DNA from: Chrysophaeum taylorii
Taxonomy: Eukaryota; Sar; Pelagophyceae; Pelagomonadales; Pelagomonadaceae
Direction of reading: 5' to 3'
NCBI GenBank assembly: GCA_029834535.1
Contig: JAQMWT010000316.1
Location: 1-64,000, forward strand
Length of the DNA: 64,000 nt
This document shows positions 3,077 through 26,981 of this stretch, piece by piece (within the stretch, counting starts at the first letter, position 1; every line of letters starts with the position of its first letter). Under the pieces are notes generated by a model. That model was not told where the DNA came from. It ran no database searches and saw only the letters and a list, made by a program, of their open reading frames with translations. The position numbers and the translations under genes are program-made.

Positions 3077-4990
3077 TTAGCGAGAAAGGCGCTGGAGGAG
3101 CGTGAGGTGGAGGAGCAAGTTCAGGATCAGGAGTAGGATGCTTGAGCATGTAGAGGAATTGTAGCTTGGACGAAACACGATTTGACCGTTTTCAGGGTTG
3201 AGGACGACGTCGGCAGTATGGTCAACACGTGGGGAGACGAGCGGGTTTTGCGCGTTGGCGCAACATAGATATAAGTATTTGCGGCGGCACGGTTCCCACT
3301 TGTGGTGCTCGTGGGGTTCCAATAGAAGGTAGCATTCAGCGCCGAAGATCTTGAGCATGTCATGCTGGGGAGTGCTCAGTTGATTGTAGAGTAGCTGTTG
3401 CGGACTCAGGATAGCATGGTGAATGCGCTCAAGCGTGGCGTTCGGTAGAAGGTTGTAGCTTTGGATGGTGTGTATCACCGCCCAGGGAAACATGATGGCT
3501 GGTTCCACGATCTTGGAGCCACGATAATGAGCATTAAGGAGAGAGCGAAGGCGAGTTGAGGAGGCGGAGGCGATGAAGCCGATGGCAGACTCAACTTCAA
3601 AGTAAAAGTGGTGCATGTACGGCGGGGAAGCGATGAGCTGAATGCCCTTATCGACACGGTACGGGGAGGTAATGTGCTGGCTAAAGTAGGGCTTGAAGGC
3701 ATCGGAGTAGAGGGTGCGCAGGTGCACGTTGAGTTGTGTACGACAAAAGTCATACACAAAGTCCAGAGCTTGAGTGAACTCCGTGGCGTTGGTGGTGCGT
3801 GTAAAGTACACCGAGAGAAACTTCGAGATAAGTTCCTTGAACACAATGATATGGGTGAAGCCCCCCCATTCTGACGGAATTGTCACATAGCCGCCGTCGC
3901 ACGCCCAGACTTCGCGGGCTTGGTGAGTTTGCTCAAAAGAGGGCTTGGTCGGATTGAAGTGCTTGTGCGGGTGGCGCTTGCTGTGCACGATGCAGTTGGT
4001 GCATAAGTCGCGATACGGTAGATCTGAGGCAGAGAAGCCAGGGCGAGCCAGTAAGTTGGGGGCCTTGGCTGCAACGTTGTCGGGGCAGTGGTGCACCCGG
4101 TGGAAGCGACTGGCACGTTCTTTGGCGTTGAGGTATTCAGCAGATCCGTGTGCGAGGGATTTGCGAGGAATGTGATGAGCGGGGATATGACGTTTGCGCC
4201 GAACATCGAACTTGAGTTCGGTGTCCAAGGCAGGAGGAGGCGGTGCGTCGTCATCCTGGTGCGCAGCAGGGTCACTTGGAGGTGCGTCCTCATCATCACA
4301 AGTAGCTAGAGTGTCTTCGTAGGATGACGAAGACATATAGTTTAACGACATTTCGGTCAAGCAGTTGCTGGAGATAGAAGTCATGAAGGCTTGTGCCAAA
4401 GACAAGGTATCTGTGCTGCACGTGGTGGAGGCCGGATCAAAGGTCATGAAGGTGGATACATAGGATATCTTCATCACGGCAGTAGAATGTTGGAAGGTAG
4501 GGTCCAACATAAGGGACTTAATATCGGCAACGAGGAGCGAGAGGTGCTTGTACAGTGTGCTGTACGTACCGGCAGGCAGAGCATTGCTGAGCATGTCGCA
4601 GCAAAGGTCGTGGCGAAGAGACAAGAGGAAAGATTCCTGTCGTTTGGTGTGGTTGTTAGCACGAATCAACTCCGGTCGAGTGGGATAGCGTAGTTTCCCG
4701 TTGCGAGGGTCGAGTAAGATAATGTTTGCATACCCTCGGACGGTGGGCAATGGAAAAAGCATGGAGTGGATTTTAGAGCCGAGTTTGCGGTCACTTCCAC
4801 GAAGATACCCTATATAGCGACTATGGGATAAGTGGTGATCTTCCAGAGCAAAATGAGAATCCTTGTAGTCGAAAGAATTGTCGGTGGCCTTGTAGGTAAG
4901 GCAGCCAGGCAGCATCTGGACAAGAGCTTTTGTATGGCAGTGCCATAGGCGGCAGCGGAGCCAACTTGAGGAAGGGCCTGGATGATCCAC
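3077..4990 (-). CDS. copia integrase ORF
   Basis: A 637-residue ORF. The first 260 residues are not recognised and include an acidic segment (about 225-255). A zinc-binding motif follows, with HRVHH then CTNC (about residues 297-340), as in the pre-integrase domain. The core has the catalytic triad: D in WACDGG, D in LYSDAF and E in FYFEVE, with the last two 35 residues apart (DD35E). Downstream text (WAVIHTIQSYNLLPNATLERIHHAILSPQQLL is the region, about 500-530) matches the copia integrase tail. It joins retroelement cDNA to host DNA. The C-terminus runs into a hydrophobic out-of-frame-looking tail, so the end is probably shifted. Confidence 0.82.
   Translation of the reverse strand: MDHPGPSSSWLRCRLWHCHTKALVQMLPGCLTYKATDNSFDYKDSHFALEDHHLSHSRYIGYLRGSDRKLGSKIHSMLFPLPTVRGYANIILLDPRNGKLRYPTRPELIRANNHTKRQESFLLSLRHDLCCDMLSNALPAGTYSTLYKHLSLLVADIKSLMLDPTFQHSTAVMKISYVSTFMTFDPASTTCSTDTLSLAQAFMTSISSNCLTEMSLNYMSSSSYEDTLATCDDEDAPPSDPAAHQDDDAPPPPALDTELKFDVRRKRHIPAHHIPRKSLAHGSAEYLNAKERASRFHRVHHCPDNVAAKAPNLLARPGFSASDLPYRDLCTNCIVHSKRHPHKHFNPTKPSFEQTHQAREVWACDGGYVTIPSEWGGFTHIIVFKELISKFLSVYFTRTTNATEFTQALDFVYDFCRTQLNVHLRTLYSDAFKPYFSQHITSPYRVDKGIQLIASPPYMHHFYFEVESAIGFIASASSTRLRSLLNAHYRGSKIVEPAIMFPWAVIHTIQSYNLLPNATLERIHHAILSPQQLLYNQLSTPQHDMLKIFGAECYLLLEPHEHHKWEPCRRKYLYLCCANAQNPLVSPRVDHTADVVLNPENGQIVFRPSYNSSTCSSILLLILNLLLHLTLLQRLSR
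4338..4358 (+). repeat. 21-bp dispersed direct repeat, copy 3 of 4
   Basis: Same motif with variable bases A and T. It lies inside the integrase ORF, where it encodes TEMSLNY on the minus strand. Confidence 0.8.
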
Positions 4991-5229
4991 AAGAAACCCA
5001 TAAACGGCTCCAAGTTATACAGATCTGTCTCTGTCGCGGGGGACGTTGGAGGCAGCAAACGTGTACGTGCTTCCAAACGCGTCAATGGAAGCATGATATT
5101 TGGTGGCGGCGTTTTCTATGGTGAGGTTGCCGTCAGTGTGGTGGCCACCGGTTAAGAAGTAGGCGTTTTGTGATGTTGATGAGGTTGTAAGTAGTAACCT
5201 ATGTGACGGTTGGTCAGTTTCGAAAACGG

Positions 5230-6264
5230 TTATGTAATAGGACACAGGAGTGGGTGAGTTAGTGTGCAATCTGGCAAACAAGTTATATAATATGGTGAAG
5301 GCCTTGACACGCAATGGATTAGTTGCGTGTGGCAGTGGTTCCAAGGAGGAGCGTTTGAAACACAGCTGATCATAAGTACCCTCGGTCGAGAGTGCGTGCG
5401 TTGCTCGTGAGCCTGTTGTGAGTGAAGGCGAAGAAATTGTAAATTGAGTGTTTCAAGGTCAGTCACGGTAAGCTGAACATAACCTGTGCGAGTGTAAGGT
5501 GCAAAAGTTTTAGGAACGGGGACATCTGGTGGATCGGGAAACACCCGGATCCAGTCTTTGGCGATATCTTTGGATAGCCAAAGTCGTTTAGGAATGGCTT
5601 GTATGTCATCCACGATCTTAAAGAAGGGGCGTGGGTGGTGGATAGGCCATGAAAGTATGTTGATTGGTCCAGTAGAATACCTGCGTGCGATGCAGATCCA
5701 TCTTCCCCTAGATTGGTAGTCGCCACATAGGTAGGTCGGGAACCTGTCAACAACATCAACACAGTAATCGAGTGTGGAATGGATGAGGTTGGCCACAGTT
5801 ATGTGGTCTTGATGACAGTACTTGTGGGGTGGTGTCATCTCAGCCAGTAGTACCAAGGGTTGGAGAAGTTTGATGACAGACAGCATGCTGTCGAACAGAG
5901 AGTCGTCGAGCAGGCTGTGTAAGTCTTCGGTCTTATGCTGCTTTAGTAGATTCCTGTTAGTGCATGGAGGAGTTATCTCGATAATATCACAATAAAATTT
6001 GCGCCTTTCCTCTGGTGAGATTTGGTGAAGATGGTTGATAAAGGCGGGTAAAGATTCAAATAATAACACTGTACGAAAACGGTGGCGTAACATGCGCACA
6101 AACGTATCATCAGACTCAACAACAACTTTTAAATTGATATTTAAGCCTAGGTCATTAGTGGCTTGAGACAGGAACGCTGGGGTTGACAAACCAGAACAAA
6201 GTAACATGACAGAGGGTTTGCGAAGATTGGGCTCTTGTGAAAGAAACACTGGGCGAGAAAGCAT
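5230..6264 (-). CDS. C5-cytosine DNA methyltransferase-like domain inside the retroelement
   Basis: A 344-residue ORF whose first 240 residues show the motifs of C5-cytosine methyltransferases in order. Motif I-like SAM site is at about residues 17-33 (SVMLLCSGLS). The motif II-like acidic turn is VVVESDD (47-53). The motif IV catalytic loop is DIIEITPPC, with the PPC at 99-101. The motif VI equivalent is LAEM (140-143, canonical ENV). The motif VIII equivalent is Q184-SRGR, then hydrophobic WICIARR. These enzymes use the PPC cysteine to attack cytosine C6 and the motif VI glutamate to assist. The C-terminal part (target recognition, motifs IX-X) is not clear; the coding signal seems to move into another frame near 5344-5015, so this copy is frameshifted. 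It sits between protease and integrase. Cytosine methyltransferases have been reported inside retrotransposons of dinoflagellates and charophyte algae. Profile search and structure prediction would settle this. Confidence 0.68.
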   Translation of the reverse strand: MLSRPVFLSQEPNLRKPSVMLLCSGLSTPAFLSQATNDLGLNINLKVVVESDDTFVRMLRHRFRTVLLFESLPAFINHLHQISPEERRKFYCDIIEITPPCTNRNLLKQHKTEDLHSLLDDSLFDSMLSVIKLLQPLVLLAEMTPPHKYCHQDHITVANLIHSTLDYCVDVVDRFPTYLCGDYQSRGRWICIARRYSTGPINILSWPIHHPRPFFKIVDDIQAIPKRLWLSKDIAKDWIRVFPDPPDVPVPKTFAPYTRTGYVQLTVTDLETLNLQFLRLHSQQAHEQRTHSRPRVLMISCVSNAPPWNHCHTQLIHCVSRPSPYYITCLPDCTLTHPLLCPIT

Positions 6265-7740
6265 TCATGTTAATGGTGGAGTATTTTGCTGAACAAATTT
6301 GTTCTGTTTCCGAAGATTAAGAACCAAAGGGCGAATCCACGGGCGATCTGGTAAAACTCTCTTGAGGAGATAGTTATAATATGCCAGTAGATCCCTGTTT
6401 TCGTGGTATCGCTTGAGCGGAAATGCGAGTGGGCGTAGTTCGAGTTGCTTGTCGCGGGCGATGTTGTAGGTGAGACAAGGGAGAGCAGGCAAGTTAGCTG
6501 CTACATAATGTATGGGAATACGCACATCTTTGTCTATGCGGCTCGTGACAGCGCTGAGCTTTGGCTCAGATCGATCACTGAACACAGTGGTCAAATTCGT
6601 TTGGTTCCACTCGAGCATGCTCAATATAGCGAGATGTCGGTTGTGTACGGGTTTAAGACATAAAGCGAAGTCAATCTTCACGTAACCGATTTGTGGATGA
6701 TCTGGTAGTGGGACAACTATGTTACGTGTTAACATCATATGGGAGGCACGTTGTTGTCCAGTGGCAGTTTGTATAATAATCGGTGCGTATTTGGGATCCG
6801 GTGGAATAATATGATTCGGAGTTGCGTAGTCGTAGCTGGACATAAAGGATATGTTAGCACGAGAGTCAAAATATAAAAAGGAACAATGTTGGGGAACACT
6901 GTTTACCTTAATATATTTCGTTAGAAGTGCATTTTCCGAATGCGGGCAAGTAGTGGAGCGACTCGCAGTGAAGAAGTTATCCAGAAATAAGAGGTTATTC
7001 GGGATGATGACCGGTTGAACAGGTGGTGATGGTTCGTCAGCATCATCAGCCATGCCGTACTTCTCATCAAATGATGATAGCGAGGTCTTATCGACATCCC
7101 TTGTGGTTTCGGTTTGTTGTGGTTGGTTTATGGCTGATTGGACCTGTGAAGATAGCGAAGACAGTAACGCTGGTGGTAACGCCGAGATGGCGGAAGCAGC
7201 AAAGAGGTTAGGCACTATATCAGAGGGGTTACCCTGTGTGTTGGAGGCATTCTTGGTATCTGTAGTAGGAGGTAGTGCCTTTGGCGTGGGAGCAGTGGCA
7301 ATAGTATGGTGTTGTGGCTCCACGTAGTTTAACGACTTTTCGGTCGAGGATAGATGAACGTCTACATCATAAATGATGTCTTCTGCGAACATGAGTTGTT
7401 CGTTTAGACGAAGTAAGTCACCATTGTCCTCAGTAGATGTGGTTGATAGAATATCGGCGGATTGCAACAGAGTCTCAAACAACTTGGTGATGTTCTGTTG
7501 TAGCTGAGCCGTGATATCATTATCTGTCACATGCCTTGTAAGTTCACTACACTGCTCTTGCAGTGTATTTATGATGCGCTTGGTTCGATCTAATAATTTC
7601 ATATTAGATCGAGAGGACCTGTCGAAAGTGCGAGAGTAAATTGGATGGTCATGGGACTGTCCAGCAGTTTTCTTGGTGACATAAGAATCACCACGCGGAG
7701 GATGTTCCAGGTTGAGAAGAAGTAATGGACGCAAGAGCAT
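6265..7740 (-). CDS. retroelement gag/protease ORF with coiled coil
   Basis: A 491-residue ORF starting with ATG. Residues about 45-130 are charged and leucine-rich, probably coiled coil. A Pro/Thr/Ser-rich linker follows. Around residues 285-300 the stretch FLYFDSRANISFM resembles the copia protease active site, but the usual D-S/T-G-A is D-S-R-A here, so the glycine is lost. A downstream hydrophobic stretch (about residues 335-365) fits the beta-rich protease body. The ORF ends in TGA at 6267-6265 and the next ORF's ATG follows immediately in the same frame, so the two could once have been one polyprotein or be linked by readthrough. The changed active site suggests inactivity. Confidence 0.6.
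   Translation of the reverse strand: MLLRPLLLLNLEHPPRGDSYVTKKTAGQSHDHPIYSRTFDRSSRSNMKLLDRTKRIINTLQEQCSELTRHVTDNDITAQLQQNITKLFETLLQSADILSTTSTEDNGDLLRLNEQLMFAEDIIYDVDVHLSSTEKSLNYVEPQHHTIATAPTPKALPPTTDTKNASNTQGNPSDIVPNLFAASAISALPPALLSSLSSQVQSAINQPQQTETTRDVDKTSLSSFDEKYGMADDADEPSPPVQPVIIPNNLLFLDNFFTASRSTTCPHSENALLTKYIKVNSVPQHCSFLYFDSRANISFMSSYDYATPNHIIPPDPKYAPIIIQTATGQQRASHMMLTRNIVVPLPDHPQIGYVKIDFALCLKPVHNRHLAILSMLEWNQTNLTTVFSDRSEPKLSAVTSRIDKDVRIPIHYVAANLPALPCLTYNIARDKQLELRPLAFPLKRYHENRDLLAYYNYLLKRVLPDRPWIRPLVLNLRKQNKFVQQNTPPLT
7325..7345 (+). repeat. 21-bp dispersed direct repeat, copy 4 of 4
   Basis: Same motif with variable bases T and T. It lies inside the gag/protease ORF, where it encodes TEKSLNY on the minus strand. 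Confidence 0.8.
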
Positions 7741-7891
7741 CTGCAGTTTGAGTCAGACTTTTGTCTGATAGATCCAGCGTGTTTGTAAGTAGTAATTTCG
7801 GTTTTGGTTGTGGTGTCAAACCTTCAACGTAAGGTTGCCAAGAAACAGGGCGTTCTAAGCGCCTTTTATTCGACCCATTTGATACTACTTT

Positions 7892-9015
7892 TTATAAGTC
7901 TAATGCGTATTCTAAGATATAGCTAGGGTTGGTAGGATGACACAATCGTTCAGCGTCTGGCACAGGCCGAGATGAAGATCGAGTTTCATACATATAACAC
8001 CAGTCTACCCAACCACGATCGTAACGATTGTTGCTGGTATTATCGGCATAATGCCGATGTATCTCTTTATAAATTTTTCTACAAAGAGTACCAAAGTCGA
8101 ATTGAAGGTCAGTCTCTTCCTGGTTAAGTCGGTAAGAGATTTGCCTAAGTGCTAGGACAGCTTCAATAAAGACATGGACATACCAGTTAGGATTATAAAC
8201 AACAGAGTTAAACTGCTGCTTTAAGGTAGGACACATCAGTAGTCGTAACAGACTCGTAGTGACTAAAGGCAATGAGCATAATGGCGCGAGCCTTGTTGGG
8301 CAAATAACTTTTGTTATACACCTCATTGATGGCGGGCCAGGCCGCAAGTGCTGGTTTTCCAACACTTTCAAGATTGAAGTAAGTATGCAAGAATGTAGCA
8401 TACGTGTTCTGATAAGTGTGCCTATCAGCAGCAGTTAGCGAGAACATGGTAACAGGGGCACGAACGCGGGTGTCAAAAGCTAATGCTTTCGGGTGCAAGC
8501 GATTTAAGATTCGTTCTTCTTCTAAGAAACGAACATTGATTTCAGGGGGTAATGCCTTGACTTCATTGTCGTAACAGACAGTAGCTAGCTGAGCTACTTC
8601 GGCGTCAGTTAACTTTGGGAAAGCTTCATTGGTGAAGTGCCATTCCTGATACTCAAGGGGGTAATTCATCAACAGCTAAATGGAGATCAGCAGCCCTATC
8701 GGTCTTCCATTCGAGGAAAACGCGATCGAGAATTTGATTCCGGAGGATCTCGTAGTCCTTGCATGACCGAGTGTATGCTTCGTACGAGTCGTACTCGAGG
8801 AAGGCATCGGCATGACTGGACCGTAATAATTGTTTAATATGCTTAATTTGCAAGGACACCTTGCGAGTTTGAAGCTGAAATCGATTTCCTTCGTTGAGAA
8901 ACTCAACTACAGGAGCTTCGAGCTTCAGTATGTCCGCACCTGTGATCGCCTTGGGTGCGGCTCGTGCTGCGTGTTCTGCCATAGCAGTAGACGGGGAACC
9001 TGTGGGTTCAGTCAC
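7892..9015 (-). pseudogene. gag-like region in three overlapping frames
   Basis: Three overlapping minus-strand ORFs (9015-8653, 8672-8208, 8401-7892) appear to be one protein split by frameshifts. The first has an N-terminal charged helical segment, then a stretch with W, L and D residues (about residues 50-115) of the kind seen in copia gag. No CCHC zinc knuckle was seen. The frame at 9015 opens with GTG; its first ATG is at 8982. Identification as gag rests on its position upstream of the protease and on general character, not on a recognised motif. Confidence 0.5.
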
Positions 9016-9820
9016 GCAGTTGACACTGTCTAGACATTCTAAGGGGGTCTGTCTGTCTATCGGTGTCTATGTACACTCATGCGTTATCGATGGAAAAACG
9101 TCTATTTGACAACGGTGCAAGCTGTGAGTCCAGAGTAGTTCCGCTAAGCGTAGTCACTCATGGCAGCTGGTTATTTTGGTGCTCTCAAGGAGCTTGGTAA
9201 GTGCATTGTCATGGAATGTACGAGTGGACGTACCCAAAATATTCCATAACATGTGTGCAAGAGTACAGGTTAGCCAACTTACACACACATCAACATTAAC
9301 ATGACAACACGATACTATGAACAGGTGCACACAAGGTTACACGATCGCGTGTGCAAAATATGCTATATACAGCCCAATGGTAATGGCGTTGTATAAACAA
9401 GCGTGTTTGCGTGGCGAGGCTGGACTGGCGCGGTAACAGTCCAAAACCCATAGGCTACGTGCACGCTTTAACACATGGCTTCTCAGGGACCCGCCTGGGC
9501 CCATAACCTGCAGAGCATTTAGCATGCAGTGGTAAGTCACCTGGGAAACCATCCCGTCTCATCATGAGCGTCTGGAAGTATTTAATTCGGGGAATGAAAG
9601 GTATGTTCCCTATATCCTCAGAACACGACAGGCGGCATCTAGAACTACACGAGAAAGGTTACGTGTATAGTGCTACATACCTCGGGACGCGCTAGACCAT
9701 GATGATGAGCTTGAGCACAAATCAGAGGACTAATTGACTGTGTAGAAAGGAAGAAGAAGGGTAAGGAAGAGATCACTTTCTTCTCAACGGACAGATAAGG
9801 GTAAGAGGCATCATATTTCT
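9016..9820. other. no supportable gene; expected location of the retroelement leader and 5' LTR
   Basis: AT-rich stretch with no convincing coding frame. It is where the copia element's leader and 5' LTR should lie, but no second LTR copy is available for comparison and I could not place a primer-binding site. Confidence 0.3.
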
Positions 9821-9821
9821 C

Positions 9822-9898
9822 TGGACCGGCTCCTCCCGGTCCGGCCTGGCTCCCACGCTCGGTCCTGGCTCCCATGCTCGAGAGAGGTCTGAAGTTTA
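9822..9898 (+). repeat. dispersed repeat shared with 56107-56170 in inverted orientation
   Basis: The stretch containing CCGGTCCGGCCTGGCTCCCA and then AGGTCTGAAGTTTAGTT matches the reverse complement of 56107-56170 with a few changes. Inside it, a 20-bp subunit (CCTGGCTCCCA plus GCTCG) is duplicated. Confidence 0.65.
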
Positions 9899-10200: not shown

Positions 10201-12453
10201 TCAGGAGAGGAGAAAAGCCGTCGCCGCGGCAATCAGGGTAGCCGCGGCAAGGAGAATGCGTGGAGTCTTAAAGATGTCAGCGGCAAAATAGATCAGAGCC
10301 GAGACCTCACCGATCGAATCGACGGCGTAGGGTGATCGCCACAGGCCCCCGTGGACGGACTGCGAGGAGAAAATCATGAGGGGGTTTTTGAGTTTGGTCG
10401 TCTGCGCCGGGTGCTTGGGGCCTTTGACGTTGAGGAGGTCGTGGACGAGGAGCGCGGCCATCACGGCGGTGGTGGTCTCTTGCTTGAAAATCTCGAAGTT
10501 GAAGGCAGGCATGCCCCCGTACGCCCAGGCAAAGGTGCGGTTGTGGATAACACTAAGCGTAGCCGTCGAGGGCGCGACGGTCGAGGACGCGAGGTGTCCG
10601 GCGTGGGCAGCTAACATGGCACGCCAATGCTGGATGCGCTTGGCGAGGGCATAGTTTGGTCCTTGGGCGACGCTCAGGCCGTTGCAGACGTGGAACTCGT
10701 CCTTTTCGGCTGCGCCGTAATAGTTTGGTTCGAGCTTGCCCGTGATTTGGAAGAAAAGAGATTCTAGGAGCTTGAGCGACCGGTTGGCGCGGTTGGCTTT
10801 GGAAGCTCGGTAAGCCTCCTCAGGAACGACGTGGAGATCGGTTGGCGTGCAAAGGAAGGCACACCCCGAGATTGCCTGGTCGCGGTCGCGACAGGCCGCG
10901 AGGAGGCGGTCGATAACGGCGTCGGCACACAACGAGAGCTTGACGTGGAGATCGCCGTCTAGGTAGGTGTAGTTACCGATGACAACCTTGGCAGATCGAT
11001 TCAGCGAGGGGAGCCAGGTGTCACAGAGCCAGGTGGCGATTTCGTTGGGTTCGTTGAGAAGGTCGCATCCGGCGCGATCGGCGTCGACGCCGTCCCCCGG
11101 GACCACTGGGAAGGTGAGGGTGCCCGCGGATGGGAGCGCGGTAATCTTGGCCCAGAGGGCGGGCCTCGGGATGTCGAGCGCGACGACGTTCGCACCCAGT
11201 GCGAGCAACGACGCGCACGGACCCATCGCAGAACCCGCGCCGATCAACACGAAGTGGCAGTCGGCGAGGGTGGTAAAGTGATTTTGAACCCAAGCAAGCG
11301 CCTCGGCCGCGCTCGGCTCGATCACCCCCTTGGCGACCCAGCCGTCCGCCAAGGCGCGGACGTCCGCAATCGTATCGCCAGGCGGTCGTGGCGCACTCGG
11401 CGACCACCCGCCGTCGTACGGCACCGCCAAGGCGTTCGAGGGGGAACGTTCGAGGCTGCCTTTGACAGTCCTCGTCTCGAAGACGCGGCCTGTCGCCGTT
11501 ATCTTGGAGCCCTTGGCCACGGCGGCGGCAAAGGCGTGGGTCACGCCGTCAGCATCCACAAACTCGAAGTGATCCCGCATCCACTTCAACCCCTCGCGAG
11601 CCGAGGAGAGCGCGCTCTCCGGCGACGACAACGAGGCCGAGACGAGGCGATTAAAATGTTTGACGTAGCCGAAGCGGTAATCTTTCTCCCTCTCCGCTGC
11701 CTTAGCCCCCTCGACGTCGCCCGTCGCGGCGAGGGCAGCAGCAATCACCTTGCGATTCGCCGCCGTCGTGCTCCTCGCGCCCTTGGCGTCTTTAGGGAAC
11801 TGACATCCGCGGGGAGGCGGCGGCTTGGGCGCAAACCGCTTCTTGAACGCACGCTTTCGGTTTCCAACCATGTTTAAGTACATGAACGGGCTTCCAGGAA
11901 TATACAACAGTTGGATCGCGGAGATGAGAGCCCTCGTCGCGTCGCTCTCGAAGCACTCGTAGCCGAGCCGCGACGTCATCAGCTCCCCCAAGATTCCCGA
12001 GGGATACAGCAAGTAAAAGACGCTGTACCGAAGCCAAAACAACGGGTACGGCACTTCTGTACCAACCAAACTGGCGACGTAAAACGAATACCGGATCACC
12101 TCCACGGCGCACCAACTCAGTACCATCACGCCCGGCCACGGCTCGCCGCCGATTTTGCACTCCGAACCGAGCACCGGAACCACCACGATCCACAGCCGCG
12201 ACATCACCTGCAAAAACGTCGGCACGAGCGGCGACGGCACTAGCCGCAAGGCGCTGTGAAAGATCTCGAGGGACATCGCCAACTGCCCAACAAGAACGAA
12301 GCTCCCCGCGTAGCCCCACACCCCCGCGAGCCCTTTCCTCTTCATTGCGACCACGCTGCATCCGGCCGCGAGCCCCCACAGCACCAGGCACATCATGTTG
12401 TACAGCACCAGGTACGCCTTGATAAGCATGGCCTTCCCTCCTTTCGCCGCCAT
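10201..12453 (-). CDS. 3-hydroxyacyl-CoA dehydratase (HACD/PTPLA family) fused to a long Rossmann-like domain
   Basis: A 750-residue protein starting at an ATG that gives an N-terminal KAYLVLYN, typical of the family. Residues 1-205 are a multi-span HACD domain: LEIFHSALRLV (62-72), SWCAVEVIRYSFY (113-125) and LRYSVFYLLYPSGILGE (141-157). The catalytic pair corresponds to Y150 and E157, seven apart as in yeast Phs1. This enzyme does the third step of very-long-chain fatty acid elongation in the ER membrane. Standalone HACDs are about 200-300 residues. Here some 540 extra residues follow: a basic linker, a helical part, a GAGSAMG nucleotide-binding-like loop (405-411) with an acidic residue after the next strand (ALD, 425-427), and a final hydrophobic segment (about 731-749). 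I do not recognise this second domain. No frame break is seen between the parts. Confidence 0.8.
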   Translation of the reverse strand: MAAKGGKAMLIKAYLVLYNMMCLVLWGLAAGCSVVAMKRKGLAGVWGYAGSFVLVGQLAMSLEIFHSALRLVPSPLVPTFLQVMSRLWIVVVPVLGSECKIGGEPWPGVMVLSWCAVEVIRYSFYVASLVGTEVPYPLFWLRYSVFYLLYPSGILGELMTSRLGYECFESDATRALISAIQLLYIPGSPFMYLNMVGNRKRAFKKRFAPKPPPPRGCQFPKDAKGARSTTAANRKVIAAALAATGDVEGAKAAEREKDYRFGYVKHFNRLVSASLSSPESALSSAREGLKWMRDHFEFVDADGVTHAFAAAVAKGSKITATGRVFETRTVKGSLERSPSNALAVPYDGGWSPSAPRPPGDTIADVRALADGWVAKGVIEPSAAEALAWVQNHFTTLADCHFVLIGAGSAMGPCASLLALGANVVALDIPRPALWAKITALPSAGTLTFPVVPGDGVDADRAGCDLLNEPNEIATWLCDTWLPSLNRSAKVVIGNYTYLDGDLHVKLSLCADAVIDRLLAACRDRDQAISGCAFLCTPTDLHVVPEEAYRASKANRANRSLKLLESLFFQITGKLEPNYYGAAEKDEFHVCNGLSVAQGPNYALAKRIQHWRAMLAAHAGHLASSTVAPSTATLSVIHNRTFAWAYGGMPAFNFEIFKQETTTAVMAALLVHDLLNVKGPKHPAQTTKLKNPLMIFSSQSVHGGLWRSPYAVDSIGEVSALIYFAADIFKTPRILLAAATLIAAATAFLLS

Positions 12454-12792
12454 CTGGGCTCGCCCAAAACTCTTAGGCTACCTGGTCGACACCAATCGAA
12501 TGGCGGCTTCAACTTATGACGATCCTCGCTTCAAGTTATGACGCAAGCGGCATCATCAATTTATGACTCAGACGGCGAGCCCACAACTTCGCCTAGGCTA
12601 TGCCCGGAACTTCTAATAAGCAGCGCGTTGCGCCAACAACTCCGCGCGCTTCTTGTATGGAACTTACACTCGACGAGAACACAACGCACTTTCTCCTCCG
12701 CTCACGACGACCTCAGCCTCCTCATTCTGCAGTGCTTCTCGGGAACACATTTCTTTTATGGCCGCGCCGATGACGTCCAACAAGCAAAAAGG

Positions 12793-23286: not shown

Positions 23287-24329
23287 ATCCTAACTACTAA
23301 TCGACAGATGTTTGTCTGTCTGTTTGTCTGTCTGTCTGTTTGTCCCTCGATTTAGGGTAAGGATCAGTTAGGCGCGAGAGTAAGGATCAGGTAGGCGCGA
23401 GAGCCAGACAGTGATCCTCCAAGCCGTCTACGGCGACCTCGCAGACTATTTCCACGACCCGCGGCGGCTCTTTCAGCGCGCCATTCTCACGCCCCGTCGA
23501 AACGATGTTGTCGATGCTGACAACGCGCACATGACCGTGGCCTTTTTTTCCCGGAGACGAGGCGTCGGAGTTCTTTTCGGCTGACTAGGCTGGGTCGGAA
23601 GACGACGCCTCGCTCTTTACAGTAGAGTTTTCAACTCCCTGACAACCAACGGCATGCTGACTTTGATTGCGAGCTTAAAGTCTTCGCAACCTCGACCCGT
23701 CGCACGGCCACTGCAACGGTACCAGATGTATGATCGATCGTGTCGTTGTCACCGAGGCTCCTCCAACCTGTATCCCGTAAGGCCCGCCGACACCAAACGA
23801 TCACCAAGAGCCAGGGCCAGACGCCCCGCGAGGTCGGCGTCCTCTTGGCGAAGCCCGTCTTCTGCCACGTCCAGCTCTACGTGGCTCTCTGTCGATCGGC
23901 AACCCCGAGGATATCCTCTTCTGAGTCGACGACTCCACCCTACCCCACACGTGCTGCGCAATACCGATAATCCCCCTCCCGGCGTCTACACGCGCACTGT
24001 AGGTGAACTTACTGGGACCAGGTGAACTTACTGGAGTTTGAGATTGGGACTAGGTGAACTTAGTGACCAGGTGAGCTTAATGGGACCAAGTGAACTTACT
24101 GGGGTTTTTAGAGTGAACGCAAAGGCTAGCGGCGTGTGCGGATAAAAGCAGCTTAGATTGGCCGAGGTGAGAGCGACGAGCTCGAAGGAGAGTGGGGTGA
24201 GTGGGTGTGAGCACGAGTGGGCTTACGCCGAATTTACTGGGGTTAGAGATTGGGACTAGGTGAACTTAATGTGGTGAAAATGCTGGGGTTAGAGATTGGG
24301 GCTAGGTGAACTTACTGGCCTGCACGTGT
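23287..24329 (+). mobile_element. Helitron-like element, copy B
   Basis: It begins TCCTAACTACTAATCGACAG and ends GGCCTGCACGTGT. The TGTC/TGTT tract is uninterrupted (23310-23342) and gives the pre-insertion state of the LINE target. The Pif1 remnant and the GGTGAACTTACTGG cluster are present. It lies 134 bp after the glycosyltransferase-sulfotransferase stop codon. Confidence 0.8.
23400..23970 (+). pseudogene. Pif1-type Helitron helicase C-terminus, copy B
   Basis: The frame 23740-23970 reads QTITKSQGQTPREVGVLLAK and then VFCHVQLYVALCRSATP. These match the Helitron motifs TINKSQGQT and VFSHGQLYVALSR. Upstream motifs lie in other frames. It lacks everything N-terminal to about motif IV. Confidence 0.85.
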
Positions 24330-24578
24330 AAAATTATAAAACGATGGGAGGGAGGAGGTTGTTTAGGGCTGGGGGGGGGATTGTTGTTGTTCTCGTCGTT
24401 GTTTTATGAATATAAAACTAGTAGAGTTTAGTAGATTCAAGGTGGGGCAATTGTCACAGCGTAAGAAAGGTCAAGGTGCGAGAGGTGGTGATGTTCGCCT
24501 TCTTAGCGAGGAGAGCGCCTTAAGGGCGTGCGGCGTAGGTGTTTGTTTGACTTAGAGGGGTTCGGGTTCGTTAAGTAC
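24330..24578. other. short spacer, 3' side of the Pro-Thr repeat gene
   Basis: AT-rich region with TAAAATTATAAAACG and GTT repeats. It is probably the 3' UTR of the downstream minus-strand gene. Confidence 0.3.
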
Positions 24579-25258
24579 TCAAGGCGTCGTCGGCACTGGT
24601 GTTGGTAGGATCGACGGCATCATTGTTGGCATGGTCGACGGCATTAATGTCGGCATGATCGTCGGCATGATCGTCGGCATGATCGTCGGCATGGTCGTCG
24701 GCGTGGACGTCGACATGATCGTCGGCATGGACGTAGGCATGGACGTAGGCATGGACGTTGGCATCGAAGTAGGCATCGACGTTGGCATCGATGTGGGCAT
24801 TGACGTAGGCATGCTCGTCGGCATTGATGTAGGCATCGATGTCGGAGTCGACGTCGGCATCGACGTCGGCGTAACTGTCGGGGTCGACGTCGGCACTGAT
24901 GTGGGGCTAGCCGTCGGCACCGAAGTGGGGGTCAACGTAGGCACGGGTGAGGGCGGGTAGAGCGTCGTAGGAGCTATCGTAGGCGCGGGGATTGGAGTCA
25001 TCGTGGGACAGTACGTCGGCATCTCGGTCGGTCCCTTGGTGGGCATCGGGTACGGAACCATCGTTGGCGAGTACCTGCGAAGACAATGTCAGGAGGGCCA
25101 GGATCATCATCGTCGCAGACTCACGAGGGCGCCGGGGTAGGTCCCATCGTGGGCGCGGGGTAGGGCGCCATCGTCGGACCGTAGGTAGGCATCGCGGTCT
25201 GCGCCGCCCCTCGCGCGAGGAGGAGGAGGAGACAGAGTAGCCGTCGTTGAGTCTCCAT
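24579..25258 (-). CDS. secreted Pro-Thr repeat protein, two exons
   Basis: Two exons: 25258-25125 and 25074-24579, joined across a 50-bp intron (25124-25075) that starts GTGAGT and ends TTCGCAG. The product is 209 residues. It begins METQRRLLCLLLLLARGAAQ, a clear signal peptide. The rest is almost entirely PT-containing units: MPTYGPT-type at the start, then a long run of PTSMPT six-residue units (about residues 105-175), then PTIMPT. Such repeats occur in secreted wall-associated or surface proteins of algae, probably O-glycosylated and extended. The splice preserves the repeat register (PTPAPS-YSPTMVPYPMPT), which supports the intron. No catalytic domain. Confidence 0.75.
25075..25124 (-). 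other. 50-bp intron of the Pro-Thr repeat gene
   Basis: GTGAGT donor at 25124 and TTCGCAG acceptor ending at 25075, phase 2. Splicing joins a signal-peptide exon to the repeat exon in frame. Confidence 0.75.
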
Positions 25259-25451
25259 CACACCTCTGTTGTGTTGTTGTTGTGCCTTCCTTCCTTTTGT
25301 GTGCGTGCTGGAAAATTTTAGAGGCCGTGTCTAAAAAAGGGACGATGGAATAAAGTTTTGCCGCAATTTGGGTTCTTGCCGCAATTGGTGAGTGTCTTTT
25401 GCCGCAACATGTCACGTCAGCGGAACTCCATGTTTACAGGGTAAGATTTAT

Positions 25452-26981
25452 TTATAATGGTAAAACAAAGCTGGCCGTTGAGCAGCGGGAGGTTATTTTG
25501 GCGGGCCGGGGCCTGAGCCTTGCGACTGCGAGCATGGTGGTGGAGGGTCGCCTTCTCGGCTTGGAAGAAGAAAAGTCGGAGGCGGGTCGGATGAGGGGCC
25601 TTATGTCGGTGCGGCAGGTCGGGCAGAGCGAGCAGCGGCGGAACCAGGGGCGGAGGCAGGCGACGTGAAAGGCATGGGTGGTGGCGCAGGGGAGGCGGAG
25701 GACGAGTCCTCCCTGGTCCCGGAGGGAGTGGAAGCAGATGGGGCAGCAGCAATCGGCACTGTCGTCGTCGTCGTCGTCGTCGTCGTCGTCCTGGTCCACG
25801 ACCAATATCGCGGTGCGGAGCAAGCGCGCGTAGGCTTCCGCGGAGAGGGGTCCGGCGAGGATTTTGGTGCCGTCGGGCGTTTCGAGAGCGGCGGCGCCGG
25901 CGCGCACGAGTTCGCCGGGCGTGGGGAGCCAGTGGCGACGGCGGTTATTCAGGAGGGAGGCGGCGGCGGCACGAGCGTTGTTGTTGTCGTCGGCGGCGAT
26001 TCTCGCGCGGAGCCACGCGTCAGCGTAGTCTATGCTTCGGGCGTTGTCGTCGCCGAAGCAGGAGGGGTGGAAGCGAAGGGTGGAATTTCGTCTTTTCCAG
26101 AGGCGCATTGGCTCGCCGACGCGCGTGAAGGGGCCCCCGCAGCCCTGGCACAGTTTCCCAACGTCGTATCCCGCGACGGCGCGGAAAAGGTCGGTCGGTG
26201 GGTCGGGGATAGGCGGGAGGGGCGCCGGTGGCGCGGGTGGCTTGGCGTGGCGCGCAACCCGCGCCGCGGCGAGGGCGGCGTGGACGGCGCGGGCGGCCGC
26301 CGCGCGGGCGCCGCTCGCGGCCGCGATCGCTTCGAGCTGGAGATCGCGGACGCCGAAAAACTCAACTACGCAACGCGCCTTGGCAACCATGATGCCGACG
26401 CGGCCGTCGGGAACGTCGATGGCGAGGGTGGCGAGGACCGCGCCGGGGGTGGCGACCCGCACGATATTTCCCCTCGCGACGACGACGAGCTCGACGATCC
26501 CGGACGCGAGCGATGGCTCGGGAACTGTCGCAAGGCGCGTCGTGGACCCCCGAACCCATCGCTCGACCGTCAGGACGGCGTCGTTCGCGTCGACGCCGAC
26601 GGCATAAAGCTCGGGCCCCGCGGCGCCGAAGACGACGTGGAATCTCCGGTCCGCATTTCTGGGATCCGAATGTTGCACCGCAAGCGCTCGGAGCCGCAGG
26701 TCAAAGTCGCAAGACGCTACCGGTCGCAGCGCGAGCAGGGTCTCGGCGGCCTCGACTTCGACACCGCCGTTTTCCAGCGGCCGCATCCATCCCTTCCCGA
26801 CGCTTTCCCATGAGCAGAACGGCATCTTAAACCTCTTCATCGTCTTCCGCACCGCCACCGGCACCGGGGGGGGTCTTGGGGCCTGCTTGCGGGACGTCAT
26901 GCCGACGTCGCAGGCCGCGGAGAAAGTCGCCGGCGAGGACCCGATTGTAGTCGTCGGCCGCCCAGCGGCCGTCATAAGCAT
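25452..26981 (-). CDS. RING-finger protein with PARP-like zinc site and beta-sandwich domain
   Basis: 509 residues. Residues about 55-215 look like a laminin-G/concanavalin-type sandwich: W65, CDFDLRLRAL (91-100), GVDANDAVLTVERW (129-142), and GRVGIMVAKARCVVEFFGV (193-211). Residues 278-308 (CQGCGGPF ending HPSCF) form a C-C-H-C zinc site like PARP-type fingers. Residues 412-457 are a RING finger: CPIC, then LPC, THAFHVACL, then CPTCR. The RING suggests ubiquitin ligase activity; the first domain may bind the substrate. A poly-Asp run (397-407) before the RING comes from a triplet repeat. The N-terminal 50 residues are doubtful; a later Met (48 or 53) may be the true start. Confidence 0.72.
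   Translation of the reverse strand: MLMTAAGRPTTTIGSSPATFSAACDVGMTSRKQAPRPPPVPVAVRKTMKRFKMPFCSWESVGKGWMRPLENGGVEVEAAETLLALRPVASCDFDLRLRALAVQHSDPRNADRRFHVVFGAAGPELYAVGVDANDAVLTVERWVRGSTTRLATVPEPSLASGIVELVVVARGNIVRVATPGAVLATLAIDVPDGRVGIMVAKARCVVEFFGVRDLQLEAIAAASGARAAAARAVHAALAAARVARHAKPPAPPAPLPPIPDPPTDLFRAVAGYDVGKLCQGCGGPFTRVGEPMRLWKRRNSTLRFHPSCFGDDNARSIDYADAWLRARIAADDNNNARAAAASLLNNRRRHWLPTPGELVRAGAAALETPDGTKILAGPLSAEAYARLLRTAILVVDQDDDDDDDDDDSADCCCPICFHSLRDQGGLVLRLPCATTHAFHVACLRPWFRRCSLCPTCRTDIRPLIRPASDFSSSKPRRRPSTTMLAVARLRPRPAKITSRCSTASFVLPL

Follow-up and report, generated by a model that had tools for sequence, protein, structure and literature searches.

We consider it probable that a Ty1/copia family of LTR retrotransposons has incorporated a C5-cytosine methyltransferase (DNMT) in its polyprotein where protease and integrase meet, and that the packaged enzyme methylates the element's new cDNA. 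This reading is built on the DNMT ancestry of the domain, for which relatives and profiles speak, on where it sits in the element, on its having spread along with that element, and on the purifying selection that acts on it. The domain lies in what we call the window, i.e., the whole stretch of 64,000 nucleotides that was analysed (bases 1–64000 of contig C316), and the assembly that was searched for its relatives comprises 70.8 Mb in 697 contigs. Features of the element in the window are all on the minus strand.

The ORF at 5230–6264 (−), 344 aa long, is real as described in an earlier interpretation made from the letters alone (hereafter the sequence-only reading), and the ordered set of DNMT motifs claimed for it was borne out. 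These are CSGLS at aa 23–27 (motif I; 6184–6198, −), E50, TPPC with the cysteine C101 (motif IV, the catalytic loop; 5962–5973, −), LAEMTPP with E142 (AEM standing at the motif VI position; 5836–5844, −), and QSRGR at aa 184–188 (motif VIII; 5701–5715, −). According to copies, profiles, and the two relatives P0001 and P0002 described below, the in-frame part of the DNMT domain is aa 1–293 only (5386–6264, −). Because the match of many copies runs to about aa 293, beyond which their longer frame stays open, the last 51 residues of the window ORF (aa 294–344) are out of frame, and the domain continues in the ORF at 5015–5452. The copy had been called frame-broken, and indeed it loses its frame after aa 293; it is also cut by the start of the contig. 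A motif IX-like segment, LTVTDLETLN, was recognized by eye from the alignment at 5443–5472 (−), and a motif X-like segment, NPLRVKAFTILYNLFARL, was recognized by eye at 5267–5320 (−), past the frame break in the ORF at 5015–5452; the latter resembles, by eye, NSPLHVKVFTLLHNLFAR of P0001.

Across 28 copies of the family, C101 and E142 (which aligns to the glutamate column of ENV) are invariant and R186 is kept in 26. Residue 187 is E in 23 copies, G in four and K in one, so that QSRER, rather than the QSRGR correctly claimed for the window ORF, is the usual form of motif VIII, a motif placed by P0001, P0002 and the copy alignment. The family domain thus has the catalytic PC cysteine, the ENV-column glutamate (reading EMT) and QxRxR, all in order, in an altered catalytic neighbourhood: motif I lacks its second glycine, no Q follows PPC, and ENV has M in place of its N.

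The case for the window ORF as a C5-METHYLTRANSFERASE is a good one that runs indirectly, through relatives and profiles, and these together with the motif order support the identification of the window domain as a divergent DNMT. Searched alone against Pfam, NCBIfam and PDB sequences, the window ORF matched no methyltransferase (PF00145 gave nothing at E up to 10). The protein database holds two relatives, at 41% and 39% identity: P0001, an MMETSP transcript (E = 6.9e-60), and P0002 (E = 3.9e-48). P0002 matches PF00145 at 6.1e-5 and 23.0 bits, above the cut-off of 22, and P0001 at 4.4e-4 and 20.2 bits, just under it, so the profile match that the sequence-only reading looked to was negative for the window ORF itself, positive for P0002 and marginally short for P0001. 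CSGLS (motif I), E50, D52, C101, AEMTPPH and Q184/R186/R188 are invariant among the window ORF, P0001 and P0002, and P0002 has TAPC where the window ORF has TPPC.

A family profile built from the 28 copies, P0001 and P0002 found the DNMT of a second copia family, described below, at 8.8e-9 and 6.9e-8 by hmmsearch, the controls being at 0.0027 (reversed window sequence) and 2 (best of the window-ORF background); the second copia DNMT itself matches PF00145 at 9.5e-8 in the same ORF as RVT_2. Aligned by hhalign, the two copia DNMTs gave a probability of 94.9 and E = 4.3e-8 (2.6e-7 with the 28 copies, 0.021 reversed). Against an alignment of the host DNMT2 and DNMT5-like sequences, the family profile reached E = 0.0012 by hhalign, in register, with four controls at 0.38–0.58. 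By hmmsearch it matched neither the host DNMT2, the DNMT5-like gene (E = 0.83) nor the gypsy-type DNMTs; the profile of the second copia family missed the window domain by the same method (E = 1.9); and by hhalign against a mixed host and gypsy alignment the family profile scored 0.082, no better than the reversed control at 0.1. A profile search of PDB with the window family returned a weak match to the cytosine methyltransferase 8yf3 (E = 0.026). The C5-methyltransferase ancestry that had been claimed is upheld by the PF00145 matches of P0002 and P0001, the profile links to the PF00145-positive copia DNMT, and the order of the motifs.

AlphaFold models of the domain from three-sequence alignments were of such low confidence (pLDDT 43 and 45) that we give the fold searches made with them no weight. 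With such a model, Foldseek placed DNMT3A/3B only at ranks 30–49 of the best 50 (E = 0.023–0.039), no C5 methyltransferase was among the best 50 VIA-align matches or another best 50, and mainly other Rossmann or P-loop proteins stood on top. One could accordingly propose some other Rossmann-type domain that is not a methyltransferase and carries the motifs by chance, pointing to the lead of P-loop and dehydrogenase folds in these low-confidence searches and to the absence of direct Pfam, NCBIfam and PDB matches. We regard this as highly improbable, since PF00145 matches were obtained for P0002 (above the curated cut-off) and P0001, the profile links were assessed with controls, and the motif positions are in order. 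Scans of viral and prokaryote contigs found no relatives of the window domain, and a search of the protein database for long Pol proteins with the window domain as a region gave none at E up to 0.01.

The carrier of the putative DNMT is one LTR retrotransposon copy that spans the window from base 9827 down to base 1 (−). Its 5′ LTR (320 bp, 9508–9827, −) was located by blastn with the LTRs of another copy at 92–93% identity, and in several other copies the LTR termini read, by eye, TGCAGAG...CTCTGCA; the 3′ LTR is missing, the window starting with the first base of the contig. Adjoining the 5′ LTR is a stretch that is primer-binding-site-like by position, GGTTATGGGCCCAGG (9493–9507, −), which may resemble the complement of the initiator-tRNA anticodon arm. 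Separately, L069 has a lone tRNA-like 3′ half at about 1490–1550, without an ARAGORN call. The Gag region (7892–9066, −) is spread over three frames (8653–9066, 8208–8675 and 7892–8434) and matched no Gag family in Pfam; in copy C127, Gag and the protease region are open as a single 960-aa ORF1. The 3′ part of ORF1 (6268–7752, −) bears a protease-like DSRA motif at about 6855–6870, recognized by motif and position only, the usual form of the aspartic protease motif being DSGA. The location of the DNMT between protease and integrase, as originally proposed, therefore holds for position, whereas the "protease" amounts to a DSRA/DSCA motif in the right place, in a region with no Pfam match.

On the other side of the DNMT, the integrase core (rve; 3671–3925, −) lies in the ORF at 3077–5014 with a Pfam E of 0.016, below the cut-off, as are the rve matches in other copies (E = 0.0037–0.0076), and an integrase SH3-like domain occupies 3254–3373 (−; PF25597, E = 1.8e-4, 21.8 bits, cut-off 27). 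The reverse transcriptase (RT)/RNase H region (571–2813, −) is broken into pieces (2172–2813, 1584–1952 and 571–885) that have no Pfam match, and the region that matches these pieces in other copies scores 7.7e-42 to 9.3e-42 with RVT_2. The start of an ORF3 (1–382, −) is cut by the contig start and matches another copy's tail by blastn at 84.7% over 1–364; in copy C9, ORF3 is 641 aa long and lies between RNase H and the 3′ LTR. The 641-aa ORF3 at L046 713–2635 had a weak coiled-coil match (E = 0.007, under the cut-off). Outside the element, the window holds a 758-aa ORF at 10201–12477 (−) with PTPLA at aa 65–213 (E = 4.6e-38) and some 540 aa without a Pfam match, and the block at 24001–26000 has a GC skew of 0.315, higher than in neighbouring blocks.

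The family is numerous in the assembly. With the window ORF as query at least 117 related places were found, its own copy included (117 of 1254 first-look candidates scored), and with another copy as query at least 134 DNMT places (134 of 1122 candidates scored; 135 rows, as one place is split over two). An RT query gave at least 150 matches (150 of 1819 candidates scored), 42 of which were protein-identical to the query, counting the query's own copy, and this points to recent spread. In copy C42, one frame of 1691 aa starts with the DNMT and runs through integrase and RT (rve at 784–866, E = 0.0076; SH3 at 968–1007, 5.6e-4; RVT_2 at 1431–1651, 7.7e-42), the rve and SH3 scores both being below Pfam's cut-offs. 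LTR pairs were found in six of ten copies (311–326 aligned columns, 90.8–97.2% identical), and the elements so bounded are 11.2–12.6 kb long. The assignment to Ty1/copia is thus sound, with RVT_2, SH3 and rve in one frame with the DNMT and LTRs in pairs. A 5-bp target-site duplication was seen by eye in two of the six LTR-paired copies (C334 and C158), while a third agreed at 4 of 5 bases and three had none that was clear.

Among the matches listed, RT lies 2.5–6.5 kb downstream on the same strand at 54 of 134 DNMT places (median 4143 bases) and at the same distance upstream at none of the 134. Six RT copies without a listed DNMT were also inspected: five have the whole-length domain in pieces, owing to frame breaks (and in L060 also to an insertion of ∼300 bases), and the sixth has its first 79 residues only. 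The ORF is therefore not absent from other copies of the element. In the matches listed and these small samples, the DNMT regularly forms part of the element and spreads with it. Of the relatives elsewhere in the genome to which the sequence-only reading had directed attention there are at least 134, and the whole ORF2 (about 1990 aa) is open in none of the scored copies, the longest open frames in the family being 1691 aa with the DNMT and 1727 aa with RT. At 14 of the 134 DNMT places the in-frame match stops at aa 236–255, as if frame breaks cluster there, be they inherited or due to errors of assembly.

ORF1 and ORF2 are separated by a UGA (6265–6267, −) with the same frame on both sides. 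Of the window copy and the 29 copies closest to it, 26 keep the UGA, two have UGG instead and two are disrupted there; two further copies outside the 30 keep it as well. The codon after the UGA (n = 26) is ATG in 14 copies, CTA in six, ATA in five and CTG in one, and since it varies, the stop is not generally followed by a start codon. There is no other in-frame UGA in the 1691 codons of ORF2 in C42 or the 960 codons of ORF1 in C127, and the tryptophan codons of these frames (12 and 10, respectively) are all UGG. Gammaretroviruses make Gag-Pol by readthrough of a stop codon. A UGA kept between two ORFs in one frame suggests a readthrough Gag-Pol product here too; readthrough is the simplest reading, and the DNMT would then probably be the first domain of a minor, packaged product. 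UGA as a general tryptophan codon was considered and ruled out, with none in 1691, 960 and 1768 codons.

Purifying selection keeps the DNMT domain. The median dN/dS of the domain was 0.156 (378 pairs, 28 copies), as compared to 1.56 and 2.32 for wrong-frame readings of the same DNA; the set comprised 28 of 32 copies, L003, L019, L027 and L039 having been dropped for indels or early frame shifts. For the last 400 codons of ORF1, dN/dS was 0.32 (56 pairs that were long enough and past the divergence filter). Within the domain, 11 of 40 positions in motifs were variable, versus 118 of 252 in the rest. We found no clear methylation footprint in the family copies in either the CpG ratio or C/T differences: CpG observed/expected was 0.90–1.03 in family copies, 1.27 in the rest of the window and 1.00–1.14 in three host light-harvesting genes, and C/T differences at CpG were 1.1–1.3 times those at other C in family copies.

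The lack of a clear footprint, the divergence of the domain beyond the reach of Pfam, and the three family-wide losses in the catalytic neighbourhood noted above (in motif I, after PPC and in ENV) would all fit a domain that descends from a DNMT and no longer methylates, serving instead as a nucleic-acid or SAM-binding module of the polyprotein, e.g., in integration targeting. This is unlikely in our view, as the near-invariant C101, E142 and R186 (28, 28 and 26 of 28 copies) are all three also present in P0001 and P0002, and the genome's second copia family retains PCQ and ENV. We think it very unlikely that the enzyme acts, like DNMT2, on RNA, be it the element's own or the primer tRNA, and not on DNA. 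Copia particles do contain the element RNA and a tRNA primer, and the profile match at E = 0.0012 had DNMT2 and the DNMT5-like sequence as its joint target and does not discriminate between them. In the passages of PMC5890265 compared here, RNA methylation is raised for a LINE-borne DNMT that was inactive on yeast DNA; those same passages report that DIRS DNMTs methylated DNA at CG in yeast, whereas the DNMT2 control did not.

A DNMT that methylates the element's own cDNA thus remains our preferred reading, and for readthrough, packaging, activity, target and role we infer the following course. Ribosomes would mostly stop at the in-frame UGA after Gag-protease and sometimes read through it, and the resulting Gag-PR-DNMT-IN-RT-RH product would be packaged with the element RNA. 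The protease would free the DNMT from the polyprotein, and the DNMT would methylate cytosines in freshly made cDNA, either inside the particle or during integration, so that new copies would arrive premarked. A host DNMT5-like enzyme could then maintain the mark, which may limit further transcription or hide the copy from other defences.

This family is not the only carrier in the genome. Scanning the assembly with PF00145 yielded at least 124 rows (123 of 474 candidates scored), of which 55 fall in the second copia family (by comparison with the first 108 rows listed) and 31 on gypsy-type DNMTs (by comparison with the 121 rows listed for these). The remaining 38 comprise DNMT2, the DNMT5-like gene, four rows on L056, L057 and L058, and 32 others, most of which share model positions with the gypsy-type rows. 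The second copia family gave at least 154 DNMT matches from the 150 of 657 candidates that were scored, with some single copies represented by several pieces; identity is 52–100% among the matches listed. Its copy L053 (C96) has, in one ORF, PF00145 (9.5e-8), rve (0.005) and RVT_2 (1.7e-12), with a DGGAS protease-like motif preceding the DNMT and with PCQ and ENV intact; L052 (C314) was followed as far as the integrase. A single pair gave a DNMT dN/dS of 0.48, perhaps with a local frame shift, and against PDB profiles this DNMT matched an unrelated protein at E = 0.19 and the cytosine methyltransferase 8yf3 at 0.26.

The gypsy-type carrier was seen in one copy, L055 (C235:20000–25000), with PF00145 (4.4e-5, 23.5 bits), RVT_1 (1.2e-13), RNase H (1.6e-27) and an integrase zinc-binding domain (1.1e-13), which follow one another as listed, in frames that overlap. 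Its DNMT has at least 121 matches (121 of 1043 candidates scored), most of them over the whole query and some in frames of up to 3067 aa, and between L055 and L056 (C677) the DNMT dN/dS was 0.147 over 155 codons. The DNMTs at L056, L057 and L058 (C57) resemble that of the gypsy-type element; the diverged one at L057 (C260) has ASPPC, CSRTR and, by eye, motif IX/X-like segments, and matched nothing among PDB profiles. In all three families, where the upstream part was seen, the DNMT comes after the protease position, which in the gypsy type was judged by eye.

The profile comparisons given above indicate that the two copia DNMTs are related to each other. By hhalign, gypsy-type DNMTs compared with either copia DNMT or with host DNMTs were not clearly above controls, nor was the second copia DNMT compared with host DNMTs; because the gypsy comparisons were near the controls, they speak neither for nor against a shared origin of the copia and gypsy-type DNMTs. 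The host has a DNMT2 at C634 (L051) and a DNMT5-like gene at C621:14500–19500 (L054), in a 2086-aa open frame. Outside the second copia family, and among the matches listed of the exon-by-exon scan, only DNMT2 and the DNMT5-like gene exceed 25.4 bits with PF00145. In a fungus, DNMT5 is reported to serve solely for maintenance. It is conceivable, if quite unlikely, that retrotransposons supply the genome's de novo cytosine methylation and the host only copies marks; the hundreds of DNMTs in two copia and at least one gypsy-type families would then lay down new methylation. If true, elements of the copia and gypsy kinds would have arrived at self-marking convergently, by taking in a DNMT at the same joint.

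The host is likely a chlorophyll-c alga, judging from its light-harvesting proteins. The assembly has 84 light-harvesting protein matches, and two were compared with PDB: one had the fucoxanthin-type 9ygv (FCP6, FCP10) as its best match (E = 9.5e-57), and the other was closest to LHCI-11 of 9vfj, with FCPI-type proteins lower down. The stramenopile host that the sequence-only reading had suggested is consistent with one of the two being nearest to a fucoxanthin chlorophyll protein, and a haptophyte or other chlorophyll-c alga is also conceivable.

DNMT-bearing retrotransposons have been described before. In the compared passages of PMC5890265 (de Mendoza et al. 2018), DNMTs are carried by LINE and DIRS elements in Symbiodinium and by Gypsy elements in Klebsormidium, and the Symbiodinium Copia elements have no DNMT domain. 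In the yeast assay reported there, DIRS DNMTs methylated CG de novo, LINE and Gypsy DNMTs were inactive (a result the authors called inconclusive), and self-methylation of cDNA upon reverse transcription was proposed for the DIRS elements. Like SymbioLINE-Dnmt and SymbioDIRS-Dnmt3 in that account, the present family has an intronless DNMT in the element's coding region, hundreds of copies, and key motifs that are kept; unlike them, the carrier is a Ty1/copia LTR element with the DNMT lodged after the protease position and before integrase. KnitGypsy-Dnmt3 of Klebsormidium nitens, as presented in the same passages, shares with the window family a DNMT within the Pol ORF of an LTR retrotransposon, as well as purifying selection (Ka/Ks below 0.2 there, a median of 0.16 here). 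However, it has Ty3/gypsy domains, DIRS-like repeats, a charophyte host and a DNMT of DNMT3 type, whereas the window family is copia and has no DNMT class assigned. Symbiodinium host genes are there of DNMT5, DNMT6 and DNMT2 types, as compared to DNMT2 and a DNMT5-like gene here.

A 2019 opinion article (PMC6338049) names, in the part compared, Gypsy and DIRS as carriers of cytosine methylases. One sentence of PMC12344493 (Mol Biol Evol 2025) puts retrotransposon DNMT3s in "LTR Copia and DIRS", citing the 2018 work; it thus says Copia where its source, in the passages compared, says Gypsy, DIRS and LINE, and the word stramenopile is absent from its main text. Sola1-1 of Ectocarpus (PMC12477816, in the part compared) is likewise a transposon with a DNA methyltransferase gene, in a brown alga, but it is of the Sola family, with a transposase and with a ParB/methyltransferase on the opposite strand that is predicted to make N4-methylcytosine or N6-methyladenine. 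In the literature searched, which mostly did not extend to subscription journals, we found no description of copia DNMTs in stramenopiles or haptophytes. The kind of element is thus known, and the carrier class (copia), the lineage and the repeated occurrence in one genome appear to be new.

Earlier DNMT carriers came from dinoflagellates (LINE, DIRS) and a charophyte (Gypsy); two copia families and a gypsy-type element here would mean that such capture is commoner than those cases alone indicate. The position of the DNMT after the protease each time it was seen suggests that capture is perhaps favoured by the way Gag-Pol is produced and packaged. In a small genome (70.8 Mb), with a host DNMT set that is possibly simple, both a benefit of self-methylation and the source of de novo methylation would be testable. 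Element-borne DNMTs may, in this alga, chemically mark the elements' own DNA.
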